Source: a virus | IMG/VR virus record: IMGVR_UViG_3300025137_000299 | Location: 1-23,532 of that record | Reading direction: 5' to 3' (one strand) | DNA: 23,532 nucleotides | Part shown: in pieces, positions 3,110 through 13,601 of the stretch | Position numbering within the stretch: the stretch's first letter is position 1 | Layout of the letters: each line of letters starts with the position of its first letter | The notes under the pieces: model-generated | What the model was told of the DNA's origin: nothing | Seen by the model: only the letters and a program-made list of their open reading frames with translations | Databases searched by the model: none | Translations under genes and position numbers: made by a program

Positions 3110-4084
3110 GTGGCGCTACCATTTGAACCTATGCCGTACGTCGAAGGATACGACCCTTTAGAAACGGCGTTAAAAACGCAAGGTATGCCTAGCCAAGTAA
3201 TACAAGATACTATCCCTTTTATGACTGACGAAGAGGCTTTAAATTTAAACAACCCAATACTTCAAGAAATAAAGCCACAACTTTCTGATTCGTGGGAAAA
3301 CGACAACTTTACACAGGTTATTTCGAAAGCCCAAGACCCCGCAGGGATTGCTTGGCAAAATGAACAATTTGGAAAGTTACCACAAGAACATAGGGTAGTT
3401 CCTACTTATAACTTAACTGACGTAGGTGACGAAGCAACGGGCCTTAACGCACTAGAATGGACAAAAGAAAATTTTTTAAGTGATCCAGATTATATAGGTT
3501 TTAATAACGAAAATAATCCAGTGTTTCAAGAAGCTATGCAACCTTTTTTAGATAAGACAGGCGCAGACGACCTTAATGTTGCAAACTGGTGCGCTGCGTT
3601 TTTGAACGGAATATTAAACACTGCTGACCCTGATTTTATGACAAAGTTAATACCAGCAAACGATGCGGGTATTATAGAATTTCCTACTAAAAGCAATTTT
3701 AAAATTGCTAGTCGGAGAGCTACAGAATTTTCTAGAATTGGAGAGTTAATTTATGATTCGACAACAAACAAAGGAAAAGTAACTAAAGATAATCCTTATG
3801 GTATAAATTTTAAAAATCTTCAAAAAGGAGATATTATTATTTTTAGTAACAATAAACGACTAGAAGACGAAACAAGAAGTTTTGAAAAAGGCCAAGGTCA
3901 CGTAGCTCTTGTAGACGATATAGATCAAGTAACAGGGCGCATACATTACGTTGGCGGAAACCAACAAACTTCTTCGGGCCTTTCAGAAGAGATTAACCGT
4001 AGCGTATTTAACGCCAAATCTAGCAACAGAACTTTTAGGGTTGTAAGATTAAACAGAAAAAAAATTAAAGATATTATAAAATGA
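3110..4084 (+). CDS. Endolysin-type peptidoglycan hydrolase, C-terminal NlpC/P60-CHAP-like domain
   Basis: A 324-residue protein starting at GTG directly after the holin-like gene, with AAGGA in the end of that gene. Residues 1-110 have no recognised domain. From about 115 there is a cysteine-peptidase layout: NWCAAFLNGIL with Cys161 as nucleophile, KGDIIIFSN (239-247), GQGHVALVDD with His264, and HYVGGNQ with Asn284. This Cys-His-Asn order and the W-C-A-A-F, G-D-I-x-x-F, G-H-V-x-x-V and G-G-N-Q blocks match the TIGR02594-type NlpC/P60 relatives common as phage lysins. It probably cleaves peptide bonds in peptidoglycan. No signal peptide is visible, so it would depend on the holin. Its TGA overlaps the ATG of the pqqA-like gene (ATGA). 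A virion-associated hydrolase is an alternative. Confidence 0.82.
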   Translation: MALPFEPMPYVEGYDPLETALKTQGMPSQVIQDTIPFMTDEEALNLNNPILQEIKPQLSDSWENDNFTQVISKAQDPAGIAWQNEQFGKLPQEHRVVPTYNLTDVGDEATGLNALEWTKENFLSDPDYIGFNNENNPVFQEAMQPFLDKTGADDLNVANWCAAFLNGILNTADPDFMTKLIPANDAGIIEFPTKSNFKIASRRATEFSRIGELIYDSTTNKGKVTKDNPYGINFKNLQKGDIIIFSNNKRLEDETRSFEKGQGHVALVDDIDQVTGRIHYVGGNQQTSSGLSEEINRSVFNAKSSNRTFRVVRLNRKKIKDIIK

Positions 4085-4155
4085 ATTGGAAAAAACCTAG
4101 CTACGTAGACGTTCGCTTCGGCTTTGAAGTAACAATGTACGTAAACAACAGATAG
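4081..4155 (+). CDS. pqqA: PqqA-like PQQ precursor peptide, 24 aa
   Basis: An intact 24-codon frame fills the gap between lysin and small terminase; its ATG overlaps the lysin TGA (ATGA) and its TAG ends one base before the next ATG. The peptide includes MNWKKP and the run KPSYVDVRFGFEVTMY, ending VNNR. This matches PqqA, the 22-30 residue ribosomal precursor of pyrroloquinoline quinone: W-x-K-P, D-x-R-x-G, and the core E-V-T-x-Y. Glu16 and Tyr20 correspond to the Glu and Tyr that the radical SAM enzyme PqqE joins with help from PqqD, after which the rest is removed. All hallmark residues are present. Form and ending resemble gamma/betaproteobacterial PqqA. No pqqB-E gene is in the window, so host enzymes would be needed. 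There is no strong ribosome site; translation probably couples to the lysin gene. The match is read by eye; the role in infection is inference. Confidence 0.88.
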   Translation: MNWKKPSYVDVRFGFEVTMYVNNR

Positions 4156-4156
4156 T

Positions 4157-4525
4157 ATGGCAAAATCAAAAGGAAACCCAGCCTTAGTTAAAGGTGGGCC
4201 TTCGTTAAACCCTGCAGGAAGACCTAAAGGCTCTAAGAACAAGCTAACTCAGATGCAAAATGAGTTAATTGATCAATTTGCAGGAGAGATGAACAAAGAA
4301 TTTAAAGCTGTTATTCGTACAATCATACGAGAAGCCAAAAATGGTGATATGACAGCAGCTAGATTGCTCATGGATAGAGCAATTCCAGCTAGAAAAGCCG
4401 TAGAACACTACGGCGCACAGGATTCTGGCGGCATTGTAATCAATATTAAAGGATTAGAAGACGTTAGTTTAAATGAAGATACAGCAATTAATGCAAACTT
4501 TGAGGAGATAGACGAAAATGAATAA
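4157..4525 (+). CDS. Probable small terminase subunit (DUF5681-like), 122 aa
   Basis: The N-terminus has GNPALVKGGPSLNPAGRPKG followed by SKNKLT. The N-P-A-G-R-P-K-G-S-K-N block is the signature of the DUF5681-type N-terminus seen in phage proteins next to large terminases. A helical middle (QNELIDQFAGEMNKEFKAV, then IREAKNGDMTAARLLMDR) is followed by an acidic tail (FEEIDENE). Small terminases bind viral DNA, form rings and regulate the large subunit. Size, basic N-terminus, helical core and position one short gene before the large terminase support this; sequence alone does not prove it. The ATG has no clear Shine-Dalgarno site and lies just after the pqqA stop, so it is probably read by coupled translation. 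It overlaps the next gene by 8 bases. Confidence 0.7.
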   Translation: MAKSKGNPALVKGGPSLNPAGRPKGSKNKLTQMQNELIDQFAGEMNKEFKAVIRTIIREAKNGDMTAARLLMDRAIPARKAVEHYGAQDSGGIVINIKGLEDVSLNEDTAINANFEEIDENE

Positions 4526-4677: not shown

Positions 4678-4719
4678 GTGGGTAAAAAGAAAGGAAAGCC
4701 AAAGCCGTATGCCTACTGA
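4678..4719 (+). CDS. Possible 13-codon basic leader peptide overlapping the large terminase start
   Basis: A GTG-initiated frame encodes MGKKKGKPKPYAY and stops 8 bases inside the large terminase gene, starting one base after the previous stop. It may merely reflect the purine-rich ribosome site of the terminase (AAAGGAAAG), but reading through it would deliver ribosomes to the terminase start. No peptide this short can be confirmed from sequence alone. Confidence 0.25.
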   Translation: MGKKKGKPKPYAY

Positions 4720-6001
4720 GCTTAATTTTTCGTTACATCCTGCACAGCAAGCTATTTTTACTTCTGATAGTAGATTTAAGGTTGTTGGCGCAGGAAGACG
4801 ATTCGGCAAGTCTTATCTTGCTAGAGTTAAGCTAATATGCAAAGCGTTAGAAGAAACTAACGAGTTTGGTTACAATTTGTCGGATAAAGCTTGTTATTAC
4901 ATAGCTCCTACGTTTAACCAAGCTAAAGACATTATGTGGCACTCTCTTAAACAGATGGCTGCTCCAATAACTAAGAAGGTACGAGAAAACGAAGGTATTA
5001 TTACTTTACTTAACGACAGAACCATACATTTAAAAGGTTCTGATAGACCAGAGTCTCTTCGAGGCGTAGGGCTATCGTATGTAGTAATGGATGAGTATGC
5101 TTTTATGAAAGAAGAAGTTTGGACTTCTATAATACGTCCAACTTTAGCTGACGTTCGCGGCGGCGCTCTTTTTATTGGAACTCCTAACGGTAAAAACCAC
5201 TTCTATGACCTTTTTATTAACGCTCAAGAAGGGCTAGATGCAGAAGATTGGGAAGCATTTACGTTTAAATCTATTGACAACCCGTTTTTAGACCCTAAAG
5301 AAGTGTTAATGGCTACAAAAGATATGCCGTTAGAGTACGTTAGACAAGAGTTTGAAGCTAACTTTGCCTCTTTTGGAGGCACAGTATTTAAGTCTGACAT
5401 GATAGAAGTAGAAGACAAACCTAGAGAAACTGGCGATATATACATGAGCGTAGACCCTGCGGGATACGAAGATGTAAAAGGTATTTCTCAAGGCAGGACT
5501 AAAAGATTAGACGAGACCGCTATATCTATTGTAGAAGTTTCTAATGCAGGGTGGTATGTCCACGATGTTATTACAGGCCGTTGGAACGTAAGAGAAACGG
5601 CATTAAGAATATTAAGGGCTGCACAAAAATACAGACCAAAATTGTTAGGAATTGAAAAAGGAGCGTTAAAAAACGCTCTTATGCCTTACCTACAAGATAA
5701 CATGAGAAGGTTAAATGTATACCCATACATTGTAGAACTCTCTCACGGTAATCAGAAGAAAGCAGACAGGATTGTTTGGGCGCTACAAGGAAGACTAGAA
5801 CAAGGTAGACTAATCTTTGCTCCTGGCGCATATTTATCAAAAATAACAGAGCAACTTTTAGATTTCCCAAACCCTATGTCACATGATGACATGATAGACA
5901 GTTTGGCGTATATAGACCAGATTGCAGTAACACCATACGACATGAGAGTTAACAGCGAAGTAGAAGAGTGGGAAGCTCTTGATCCTGTTAGCGGAATGTA
6001 A
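4709..6001 (+). CDS. terL: Terminase large subunit (packaging ATPase/nuclease)
   Basis: A 430-residue protein with the expected two-domain plan. ATPase: an adenine-binding region near FSLHPAQQAIF (7-17), Walker A GAGRRFGKS (27-35) with Lys34, Walker B SYVVMDEY (123-130) with Asp128 and catalytic Glu129, and coupling motif GTPNGKN (157-163). RNase H-like nuclease: first acid Asp249 in YMSVDPAG, second Glu316 in LGIEKG, third in SHDDMIDSLAY (391-401, Asp393/394 and Asp397). It cuts concatemeric DNA and pumps it into the prohead through the portal. The length is near the family's usual 430-550 residues, so it is compact but complete. The portal gene follows 11 bases later. AAGGA lies about 13 bases before the ATG. 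Confidence 0.95.
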   Translation: MPTELNFSLHPAQQAIFTSDSRFKVVGAGRRFGKSYLARVKLICKALEETNEFGYNLSDKACYYIAPTFNQAKDIMWHSLKQMAAPITKKVRENEGIITLLNDRTIHLKGSDRPESLRGVGLSYVVMDEYAFMKEEVWTSIIRPTLADVRGGALFIGTPNGKNHFYDLFINAQEGLDAEDWEAFTFKSIDNPFLDPKEVLMATKDMPLEYVRQEFEANFASFGGTVFKSDMIEVEDKPRETGDIYMSVDPAGYEDVKGISQGRTKRLDETAISIVEVSNAGWYVHDVITGRWNVRETALRILRAAQKYRPKLLGIEKGALKNALMPYLQDNMRRLNVYPYIVELSHGNQKKADRIVWALQGRLEQGRLIFAPGAYLSKITEQLLDFPNPMSHDDMIDSLAYIDQIAVTPYDMRVNSEVEEWEALDPVSGM

Positions 6002-6012
6002 AAGGACGTACA

Positions 6013-8415
6013 ATGGCAGTAACTAACATCGTAGAGGGATACAACGGGAACACAGACCCCGAAATGAAACCCGTCGATACAGAACTAACAGGGTGGATTA
6101 CCTACAAAGTAGATAATTGGGAAGAAGCCAGAAATCGTCAACATCAAAATCGTTGGCAAGAATATTATCGTCTTTGGAGAGGCCAACACGGTGGCCCAGA
6201 AGATAAGATTCGACAGCACGAACGATCTAAAATTATTGCACCTGCTTTGCAGCAGTCTATTGAGGCTGGAGTTGCAGAGATGGAAGAAACTGTTTTCCAC
6301 AGAAAACGGTGGTTTGATTTAGAAGACGATGTAAGAGAGAAAATCTTTGCACAACTTATTAAAGAAAACAGAGACAACATAGACCCAGCTCAGATTGAAG
6401 AGTTAGCTAGAGATGTTGATACTCGTTTAGATGCGATTACTTCTCAATTACTAGAAGACTTTGAAACAAGAAATGTTAATAAAAGCATTTCAGAAATTCT
6501 TTTAAATGCTGCGCTGTATGGCACAGGCATAGGAAAAATATCAGTAGAGCAAAAACCACGTAGAGTGCCTATTACAGGTTCTTCTGGTGTAACTAGTGAT
6601 ATAGAGATGGTTGACGATATACACGTTAAACTTATTCCTGTTGACCCTAATGAATTTGTAATTGACGTAGCGGCTAAAAGCATAGAAGAAGCTTTAGGCG
6701 CAGCTCACATCTACACAATACCTAAACACGAAGTTGCCCAAAAGCAAGACAGAGGTTTGTGGAATAAAACAGACGTAGGTCTGTACGACTCAGAATCTTC
6801 TGCTCACCAAGAGTTTGATATACACGAAGAGTCTTACGAGGACATAGAACACGTTGAGATTGTAGAGTATCACGGATTAGTACCTAAAGATTTATTTAAA
6901 GACGCTGCTAAAGAAAGCGTTAGCGACCCTTTAGCTGAATTTGCAGAAGAGAACTCTAACTTAGAATACGATGATGCAGGAGAAATGGTAGAAGCTATTG
7001 TTTGGATTGCTAATCGGTCTGAACTACTAAAAGTAGTTCGTAACCCTTTTATTATGCAAGACAGGTCTTTTGTTGCGTTCCAGTGGGACACAGTACCTAA
7101 CAGGTTTTGGGGTAGAGGCATAGCTGAGAAAGGTTATAACCCACAGAAAGCACTTGACGCAGAGTTAAGGGCTAGAATAGATTCGTTAGCGCTAGCTACG
7201 TATCCAGTAGCCTTAGTTAACGGTATGATGGCTCCGCGTAACGGAGACTTTTCTATAAGACCAGGAAGGAACATAATTGTCTCTGGCCCTGTTAACGAAG
7301 CTATTGCTCCGTTTAAGTTTCCTGGCCCAGACCCGCAGAGCTATCGACAGTCTGCAGAGTTTGAGCGTATGGTGACTATGGCTACAGGATCTATGGATAC
7401 TGCAGCTCCATTAGGTGTTAACCCTAGAAACGCCACTGCAGGTGGCATGTCTATGATGATGGGAGCTATCCTTAAACGAGCTAAAAGAACACTCCGTAAT
7501 ATGGAGTTTGAATTTTTAGGCCCACTAATACACAAGATAGCTTGGAGATATATGCAGTTTGATACCGAAAGGTATCCTGTAGCAGATTATCGGTTTAGAG
7601 TACACGGCGCTCTTGGAGCGCAAGCTAGAGAGTTTGAAGTAGCACAACTTACACAGTTGATGCAAACAGTCCCTCCTGCTTCTCCTGCGTATTGGTTATT
7701 GCTTAAAGGCGTAATCAACAATTACAACATAGAAGACAAAGAACAGCTTGTTAACATTGCAGATAAGTTCTTAGAACAAGCGCTTAATCCTCCAGAGCCT
7801 CAACCAGACTTTGATCAACAGACTAAAATAGCTGACCAAGAACTTAAAAAACAAGCTCTTATGTTTAAAGTTATGGAGAGTAAACTTACAAATGCTCGTC
7901 AAGATATTGAAATGGAAGCTGAAGCTGAGAGAGATAGAGGAGAAGCTATTTGGAACCAATCAGAAGCTCTGCTTAATATTGCTAAAGCTAAAACTGAAGA
8001 ACAAAGAACTTCAGCAGAAGCTGTTTACAAAGAAGCTAAAGCTGCGGAAGCTCTTGCTGGCAAGGCAGCCACGGAGAAACAAGACGCAGTGGCTCCTATT
8101 GATTATTTAAATTTAGTTGAAACTCTTAAAGATCAATACGAAAGTTACACTAATACGGCTATTGACCAAATTAGCAACAAAGTTAACGAGAGTATGAATC
8201 ACATTACTCAACGTCAACAGATGTTTCAGATAGACCCGCTTAACTCTAAATTAGATGCAATACTACAGCAACAAGGTCAAATAGCTCCACAGCAACCTCA
8301 AGAAATGCAAGAACCAGATTTAAACATTGAAAGAGGCCCAGATGGTAGGGTCGCCTCTATAGGAGGCCGACCTGTTCGTAGAGGAGATAACGGCGAACTT
8401 AGAGGCGTTGAATAA
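6013..8415 (+). CDS. Portal protein, 800 aa
   Basis: Follows the large terminase at the place expected for the portal, the dodecameric ring through which DNA enters and leaves the capsid. The early part has RQHERSKIIAPALQQSIEAG then EETVFHRKRWFDLEDD, and the middle VPNRFWGRGIAEKGYNPQKA near residue 361, followed by RARIDSLALATYP. These are the clip/wing-type blocks of large podovirus portals. The C-terminal part has an Ala/Glu/Lys-rich helix (about 606-693, KAKTEEQRTSAEAVYKEAK) likely forming the barrel, and a Gln/Pro-rich tail (about 745-771). At 800 residues it is longer than T7-type portals (about 535), which suggests a P22-like barrel, an inference. AAAGGA lies 9 bases before the ATG. Its stop overlaps the tail-fibre start by one base. 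Confidence 0.88.
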   Translation: MAVTNIVEGYNGNTDPEMKPVDTELTGWITYKVDNWEEARNRQHQNRWQEYYRLWRGQHGGPEDKIRQHERSKIIAPALQQSIEAGVAEMEETVFHRKRWFDLEDDVREKIFAQLIKENRDNIDPAQIEELARDVDTRLDAITSQLLEDFETRNVNKSISEILLNAALYGTGIGKISVEQKPRRVPITGSSGVTSDIEMVDDIHVKLIPVDPNEFVIDVAAKSIEEALGAAHIYTIPKHEVAQKQDRGLWNKTDVGLYDSESSAHQEFDIHEESYEDIEHVEIVEYHGLVPKDLFKDAAKESVSDPLAEFAEENSNLEYDDAGEMVEAIVWIANRSELLKVVRNPFIMQDRSFVAFQWDTVPNRFWGRGIAEKGYNPQKALDAELRARIDSLALATYPVALVNGMMAPRNGDFSIRPGRNIIVSGPVNEAIAPFKFPGPDPQSYRQSAEFERMVTMATGSMDTAAPLGVNPRNATAGGMSMMMGAILKRAKRTLRNMEFEFLGPLIHKIAWRYMQFDTERYPVADYRFRVHGALGAQAREFEVAQLTQLMQTVPPASPAYWLLLKGVINNYNIEDKEQLVNIADKFLEQALNPPEPQPDFDQQTKIADQELKKQALMFKVMESKLTNARQDIEMEAEAERDRGEAIWNQSEALLNIAKAKTEEQRTSAEAVYKEAKAAEALAGKAATEKQDAVAPIDYLNLVETLKDQYESYTNTAIDQISNKVNESMNHITQRQQMFQIDPLNSKLDAILQQQGQIAPQQPQEMQEPDLNIERGPDGRVASIGGRPVRRGDNGELRGVE

Positions 8416-12650: not shown

Positions 12651-13601
12651 ATGGCCCTCGGCACAGCACATATGACGACTACCACTCATACTAAATTTAT
12701 TCCTGAGTTGTGGTCAGACGAAGTAGTAGCGGCATACAAGAGCAATCTTGTACTCGCAAATTTAGTTACCCGAATGAACCACAGTGGTAAAAAGGGTGAC
12801 ACCATTCACATTCCAAAACCAACTAGAGGCGCAGCTTCTGCAAAAGCAGCGCAAACTGAAGTAACTCTTATTGCTGCAACTGAAACTGAATTAACAATTT
12901 CTATTGATAAGCATTTTGAGTATTCTCGTATGATAGAGGATATACTAGAAAAGCAAGCTTTGTCAAGTATGAGAACTTTTTATACTGATGATGCTGGTTA
13001 TGCGCTTGCTAAACAAGCGGATACTCACCTTTGGTTGCAAGCTTACACGTTGACTGGTGGTACTATCAACACTGTTAGTTCTGGAACTACTGTTGACTTT
13101 GGTACTGCTGGAACTGTAATTGGTTCTGATGGTTCTACTGCGTTTAACGCAGGTAACGATAACGCAGCAGCACTAGCTGACGCAGGTATCAGAAAAGTTA
13201 TTCAGACTCTTGATGATTCCGACATTCCTATGTCAGATAGATTCTTTGTTATTCCACCTGTGGAAAAGAAAAATCTAACTGGGCTAGCTCGATTTACTGA
13301 GCAAGCGTTCGTAGGTGAAGCTGGAGCAGGAAACTCTATTAGGAATGGCTTAGTTGGAGATGTATACGGAATCCCTGTATATGTATCTACTAACTGTCCT
13401 ACAGATACTGAAGGCTCCCAAGACGCTAGATTGTGCTTAATGGCACATAAATCTGCGTTGGTAATGGCTGAACAGATGTCTGTCCGTACACAGACTCAGT
13501 ACAAACAAGAATGGTTAGGAGACTTGTTTACTGCTGATACTATCTACGGTACAGGTGAACTCCGAAACGATGCTGGCATTAAAATTGCTGTCGTTGCGTA
13601 A
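12651..13601 (+). CDS. Major capsid protein, 316 aa
   Basis: Follows the scaffold gene with a strong AGGAG eight bases before the ATG; a second ATG five bases upstream, in another frame, is ignored. The protein has an N-terminal arm (THTKFIPELWSDEVVAAYKS), then GKKGDTIHIPKPTRG, FEYSRMIEDILEKQALSSMR, and a late FVGEAGAGNSIRNGLVGDVY followed by GIPVYVST. The order helix, G-D-T-I-x-I-P, long helix, then G-x-I-x-G-x-P-V-Y is that of HK97-fold coats of the kind seen in marine podoviruses. It forms the icosahedral shell. A terminator lies directly after the stop, which would let this gene be expressed above its downstream neighbours. Confidence 0.9.
   Translation: MALGTAHMTTTTHTKFIPELWSDEVVAAYKSNLVLANLVTRMNHSGKKGDTIHIPKPTRGAASAKAAQTEVTLIAATETELTISIDKHFEYSRMIEDILEKQALSSMRTFYTDDAGYALAKQADTHLWLQAYTLTGGTINTVSSGTTVDFGTAGTVIGSDGSTAFNAGNDNAAALADAGIRKVIQTLDDSDIPMSDRFFVIPPVEKKNLTGLARFTEQAFVGEAGAGNSIRNGLVGDVYGIPVYVSTNCPTDTEGSQDARLCLMAHKSALVMAEQMSVRTQTQYKQEWLGDLFTADTIYGTGELRNDAGIKIAVVA

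Follow-up and report, generated by a model that had tools for sequence, protein, structure and literature searches.

One PqqA peptide is consumed for every molecule of the cofactor pyrroloquinoline quinone (PQQ) that is made, while the enzymes of the pathway can be reused. PqqA is a short peptide of about 20–30 residues with an N-terminal leader for PqqD, which binds it; PqqE then crosslinks it through Glu16 and Tyr20, the residues named as reactive in Methylorubrum extorquens PqqA (PMC10906245). In the Methylophilaceae, 3–12 copies of pqqA are found versus typically one set of the other pqq genes, pqqBCDE (PMC4109929), and in the Methylophilaceae genomes that we sampled pqqA was present in 120 of 120, at 1–12 copies each. 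These extra solitary copies, which are chromosomal and not viral, encode more substrate than there are enzyme genes, and by analogy can be regarded as a natural case of substrate-gene dosage.

Phage pqqA has been known since 2020, when PqqA and methanol dehydrogenase were reported from Lake Baikal phages (PMC7678222). The pqqA of the methylotroph phage VP_266, from a T4-like population with a methanol dehydrogenase gene as well, was read as an auxiliary metabolic gene (PMC7678222), and a 2026 paper includes viral pqqA, pqqD and pqqE in its list of phosphorus-cycling genes of viruses (PMC13188868). The parts of the open-licence literature available for the phages Venkman and MEP301, the MEP401/402 group and the Melnitz phages make no mention of a phage pqqA. 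A paper on RiPPs (PMC11118758) concerns a PqqA family that is co-expressed with bacterial defence systems and is not a phage gene. What is new in the present analysis is the phage group, and the breadth, mobility and selection evidence.

The stretch of DNA analysed here, from a marine virus of bacteria and referred to as the window, is the 23,532 nucleotides of IMG/VR record IMGVR_UViG_3300025137_000299. Its PqqA resembles the bacterial peptides described by PF08042 and TIGR02107 in its length, WxxP leader, RFGFEVTMY core, Glu16 and Tyr20; unlike the bacterial genes, it is phage-encoded, lies inside a lysis and packaging block and is unaccompanied by pqqB-E. The window shares with VP_266 a phage-borne pqqA that can be read as an auxiliary metabolic gene, but differs from it in its SU10-type portal, in its gammaproteobacterial type of PqqA and in that no dehydrogenase was seen within its 23.5 kb. 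We propose, with a probability of roughly three in four, that the window carries a functional pqqA which acts as an auxiliary metabolic gene and replenishes the substrate that the host PQQ pathway uses up.

The pqqA frame and its neighbours

The frame occupies positions 4081–4155 on the forward strand and translates to MNWKKPSYVDVRFGFEVTMYVNNR, 24 residues, followed by a stop. It had been predicted to carry the PqqA signature, with Glu16 and Tyr20 at the positions used to build PQQ, and both the translation and the profile searches confirm this: the NCBI equivalog model TIGR02107 scores 47.5 bits (E=1.1e-12, cut-off 20) and the Pfam PqqA model PF08042 44.1 bits (E=1.8e-11, cut-off 21.1). In a PqqA profile search of the whole 23.5-kb record the frame is the sole match (E=3.3e-13), and the same search gave matches in none of 14 control genomes; PHROGs yielded no family for the peptide. 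Its leader reads WKKP, its Glu-x3-Tyr pair is Glu16 and Tyr20, and the 22-residue core from W to R (4087–4152, forward strand), made up of the WxxP leader and the RFGFEVTMY core, was used in comparisons. Judged by profile scores and sequence features, the frame is a full, intact PqqA.

The gene is closely fitted into its operon, as the original prediction had it. Its start codon and the stop of a 324-codon frame (3110–4084) overlap in the sequence ATGA, and at its other end a single base (4156) lies between its stop and the ATG at 4157. A Shine-Dalgarno-like motif lies 4–16 bases upstream of pqqA in 140 of 143 viral copies, whereas none is visible at the window copy, so that the ATGA overlap probably matters for the translation of the latter. 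The upstream gene (3110–4084, forward) encodes 324 residues with a CHAP-like C-terminal part, a possible cell-wall hydrolase; its matches to TIGR02594 (29.8 bits, E=6e-7, cut-off 70.55) and to CHAP (E=0.0017, under the gathering score) are both sub-threshold. The downstream gene (4157–4525, forward) encodes a 122-residue DUF5681 protein (PF18932, 43.8 bits). The names lysin and small terminase that these genes had been given are likely: the first has weak backing from the CHAP/TIGR02594-like part although both scores fall short of the cut-off, and the second is a small-terminase candidate by its position, its protein family being DUF5681.

Further downstream, and judging from sequence and gene order, a mini-ORF encoding VGKKKGKPKPYAY (4678–4719, forward) overlaps the start of the terminase large subunit gene, terL, and supplies a GKKKGKPKPY leader that in the window is separate from pqqA. 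A leader like that of the mini-ORF forms an in-frame N-terminal extension of PqqA in the relative L020 (L020:2837-2947). The terL gene itself (4709–6001, forward; phrog_2, E=5.6e-45; PF03237) was used to gather relatives, and is followed on the same strand by genes for an SU10-type portal protein (6013–8415; PF23899, 58.9 bits; phrog_1216) and a major capsid protein (12651–13601; phrog_267, E=6.7e-52). The record is that of a tailed phage. The named relatives of the portal are distant, mostly phages of Roseobacter-type bacteria, Pelagibacter and Puniceispirillum, and those of the capsid are likewise distant and mixed. A tRNA search of the window found none. A SprT-like metallopeptidase gene (weak match) lies at 459–1073 on the reverse strand, and the Venkman record also opens with an annotated SprT-like protease.

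Selection and placement within the lineage

Gathering by terminase gave 80 viral contigs related to the window, and a TIGR02107 profile search of their records found an intact pqqA in 16 of the 80, although many of these records are fragments, and a missing pqqA is not proven record by record. The distribution is all-or-nothing: with a position matrix, pqqA copies score 61–68 bits versus less than 13 in the records without pqqA, and no decayed remnant was found by this matrix in relatives that lack an intact copy. In ten lineage copies the W and P of the leader and the amino acids of RFGFEVTMY are invariant; silent variation is seen in eight of the nine RFGFEVTMY codons, the exception being the single-codon Met. 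Pairwise values, which are rough as they come from 22 codons, are dN 0.10 and dS 0.95 for the window and L004, and dN 0.08 and dS 1.06 for the window and L009. These substitution patterns show a phage pqqA that is kept by purifying selection.

The first set of DNA patterns used to find viral copies had fixed the R, G, E, T, M and Y codons, which makes conservation there circular. We therefore searched viral contigs with the pattern R-F-G-F-x-V-T-M, which places no constraint on the codon of either Glu or Tyr. Among the matches listed, all 117 with a WxxP leader keep both Glu and Tyr, the latter encoded by TAC in 63 and by TAT in 54; three listed matches without the leader look like chance matches and were not counted as true copies. 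Glu16 and Tyr20 are conserved in all relatives that carry pqqA, and none of the contrary signs sought in the sequence (a missing PqqA profile score, Glu or Tyr lost, interrupted frames in relatives) was found.

These patterns bear on the possibility that the peptide is a decoy or inhibitor, occupying PqqD and PqqE to stop PQQ synthesis or to spare S-adenosylmethionine. Such a peptide would also retain the leader and core for binding, and conservation by itself is compatible with it. A dead-end peptide would, however, be free to lose Glu or Tyr, which the free-codon scan does not bear out, and for 45 of the 143 viral copies the 22-residue core has an identical counterpart among the bacterial PqqA peptides of our set. 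We consider a decoy unlikely. The original prediction had offered a peptide that hijacks PqqD and PqqE as an alternative to substrate supply; nothing was found in its favour, while the interpretation as a genuine, operon-fitted phage PqqA without pqqB-E and with Glu and Tyr kept is upheld.

Gene order and DNA context distinguish at least five placements of pqqA within the lineage. In the window and L002 its neighbours are the CHAP-like gene on one side and the DUF5681 gene on the other. In L004–L008 and L010 it lies directly 3' of a gene for 148 residues, with no CHAP-like gene detected between, and in L016 it is upstream of this same gene. In a fourth placement, directly before terL, it is fused in frame to a MGKKKGKGKPKPY leader in L020, has a probable GTG start in L022 and L023, and stands alone in L036. 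In L025 and L043 it carries an MGKKRKPKPSY leader and lies well upstream of the DUF5681 gene.

The N-terminal extensions in some relatives (L020, L025) might be taken to favour a different product: the phage peptide would be crosslinked by host PqqE but then put to another use, such as signalling between infected cells. As a peptide made on ribosomes and then modified, PqqA belongs to a class of precursors that can be re-used. On the other hand, over all 22 residues the core keeps the form seen in ordinary bacterial PqqA, and a casual, not systematic, look at the adjoining genes revealed no recurrent maturation or export gene. A new role for the product is quite improbable in our estimation.

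Breadth among phages

Among annotated phages, tblastn matched 13 records, of which ten are real phage records with pqqA: Venkman, MEP401, MEP402, MEP301, P19250A, four Melnitz phages and one uncultured podovirus. The nine named records, from phages of methylotrophs, represent five phage types. PqqA is annotated in none of the ten. In Venkman, MEP401, MEP402, MEP301 and P19250A the match is not covered by any annotated feature, while in Melnitz-1 (MZ577095.1, 74848-74943) and the uncultured podovirus (MW202481.1, 2067-2195) a hypothetical ORF is annotated on the strand opposite the real pqqA. Like the window, these phages of OM43/LD28 (the nine named ones) have a single pqqA, and their hosts are PQQ-making methylotrophs; unlike it, they belong to other phage types and their PqqA is mostly of the Methylophilaceae type (E-M-RFGFEVTMY). 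Capsid and terminase comparisons among Venkman, MEP402, MEP301, P19250A and the window revealed little or no mutual similarity, the exceptions being a weak capsid match between the window and MEP301, a partial terminase match between the window and Venkman, and a short one between Venkman and MEP301.

The other three tblastn records were set aside. CAKLQF020000010.1, labelled Acinetobacter phage MD-2021a, is a piece of bacterial chromosome that carries polyphosphate kinase and further host genes alongside pqqABCDE; CAKLQH020000055.1 is a second, shorter record of the same name with the same match; and in the third the match is at chance level.

Two mutually exclusive DNA patterns were used to scan viral contigs more widely. 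D-[IV]-RFGFEVTMY is found in 80 viral contigs (a complete scan) and E-M-RFGFEVTMY-x-MNK in at least 120, so that together at least about 200 viral contigs, mostly unannotated and from several unrelated phage groups, carry pqqA. Of 75 new loci from the first pattern, 12 have two or more genes in common with the window and the other 63 have none. Clustering of the loci by single linkage put most phages together and was not used for lineage counts. Given this recurrence in unrelated groups, phages of PQQ-making bacteria seem to supply PqqA repeatedly.

In some phage pairs the common DNA is confined to pqqA and a few tens of bases in that region. For Venkman and MW202481 the stretch in common there is 85 bp long, at 90.6%, and many other pairs show the same behaviour. 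Such matches across lineages may reflect independent capture from similar hosts or transfer from phage to phage. We give about even odds to the broader idea that pqqA is a general, overlooked and mobile mini-gene in phages of PQQ-making bacteria, a cassette of about 100 bp made up of a ribosome-binding site and 24 codons, which unrelated phages gain repeatedly and which shifts between slots. If so, infection would widely be limited by the supply of PqqA, in methylotrophs as in other users of quinoproteins.

The patchy presence of pqqA in the lineage would also be expected of a passenger, host DNA caught by chance and not yet lost. This is very hard to reconcile with the strong bias of silent over replacement changes and the lack of decayed copies, unless most copies are very young, or with the Shine-Dalgarno motif in nearly all copies and the recurrence in several unrelated phage types. 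Misassembly or bacterial contamination of the viral record, of which the MD-2021a record is a real example, is highly improbable, as several metagenome records of the window lineage have phage genes to either side of pqqA and the gene is also present in cultured isolate phage genomes.

Proposed substrate supply to the host pathway

The proposal that the window phage supplies PqqA as substrate is left as the best explanation. The gene is of host type, lies in bona fide phage genomes, as its phage flanks and the isolate genomes indicate, and is kept by selection, all of them features of an auxiliary metabolic gene. During infection, phage PqqA would be translated along with the lysis and packaging genes and passed to host PqqD and PqqE for the Glu16-Tyr20 crosslink; a host peptidase, PqqB and PqqC would then complete PQQ. 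The cofactor would load periplasmic quinoprotein dehydrogenases, such as the XoxF/Mxa methanol dehydrogenase, which would run on and supply electrons and ATP until lysis. Because PqqA is consumed and the enzymes are reusable, the phage could sustain PQQ production after shutdown of host gene expression by bringing nothing but the substrate. A benefit of pqqA to infection is inferred from these considerations.

Earlier work is in line with such a supply: a cell extract given purified PqqA produced PQQ (work cited in PMC9851590), and overexpression of pqqA alone was reported to raise PQQ (work cited in PMC7936290), as in Gluconobacter, where single genes were overexpressed to raise PQQ and pqqA was among the best (cited in PMC7936290). 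Our own results show three further points in support: the lack of pqqB-E, the many unrelated phages, and the identified hosts, which are PQQ-making bacteria. The absence of pqqB-E had been noted for the window; it was borne out there, and no pqqB-E homologues were found in the other viral loci examined. Against substrate supply stand the lack of pqqA in most of the lineage relatives gathered, though many of these are fragments, and the presence of a quinoprotein dehydrogenase in just one of 50 records. The late-operon position in the window is also late for a metabolic boost, but Venkman and MEP301 differ in this respect, with pqqA among replication and recombination genes.

On the host side, PqqE scores over the cut-off in 18 of 20 bacterial genomes with PqqA of matching types. 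Among the matches listed, bacteria with the same core are mostly methylotrophs or methanotrophs (Methylotenera, Methylophilus, Methylophaga, Methylococcaceae, OM43). The bacterial PqqA most similar to the window peptide matches it at 79%, and for the lineage copies the nearest named bacteria are Thiotrichales, Methylophaga and MAGs of methanotroph type. The window PqqA belongs to a gammaproteobacterial type and not to the Methylophilaceae one, and PqqE in the host of this phage is assumed.

Most auxiliary metabolic genes encode enzymes. The product of pqqA is a ribosomal substrate that is destroyed in use, and 75 bases could suffice for a phage to steer a cofactor pathway. A gene of 24 codons is easily overlooked. 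If supply of PqqA is routine among phages of marine methylotrophs, viral infection would have a direct influence on methanol oxidation and C1 flux. Cultured pairs of host and phage exist for Venkman, Melnitz, MEP301 and MEP401/402.

In a search of 50 virus records, almost all of which carry pqqA, the one PQQ alcohol dehydrogenase found is in the 72-kb record IMGVR_UViG_3300025120_009955 (34049–35731), with pqqA near 41890. This pairing, known from the Baikal phages too, speaks for substrate supply. This record also encodes ribonucleotide reductase, GroEL, a NifU/IscU-like protein, a molybdopterin formate-dehydrogenase-like protein, SoxY/SoxZ and curlin repeats. If the contig is not chimeric, the gene set contains parts of a methanol-to-formate oxidation kit.

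Another pqqA-bearing relative (G021) encodes an ErpA/IscA-like Fe-S carrier (L340:5030-5359, reverse strand). PqqE is an Fe-S enzyme, and a link between the two is conceivable. Host assignment through the ErpA-like protein was uninformative, with a best identity of 67% and matches in 286 of 369 class genomes. Among bacteria, two loci from Methylophaga-type genomes (L283 and L287) have three pqqA copies within 8 kb, some of them close together.
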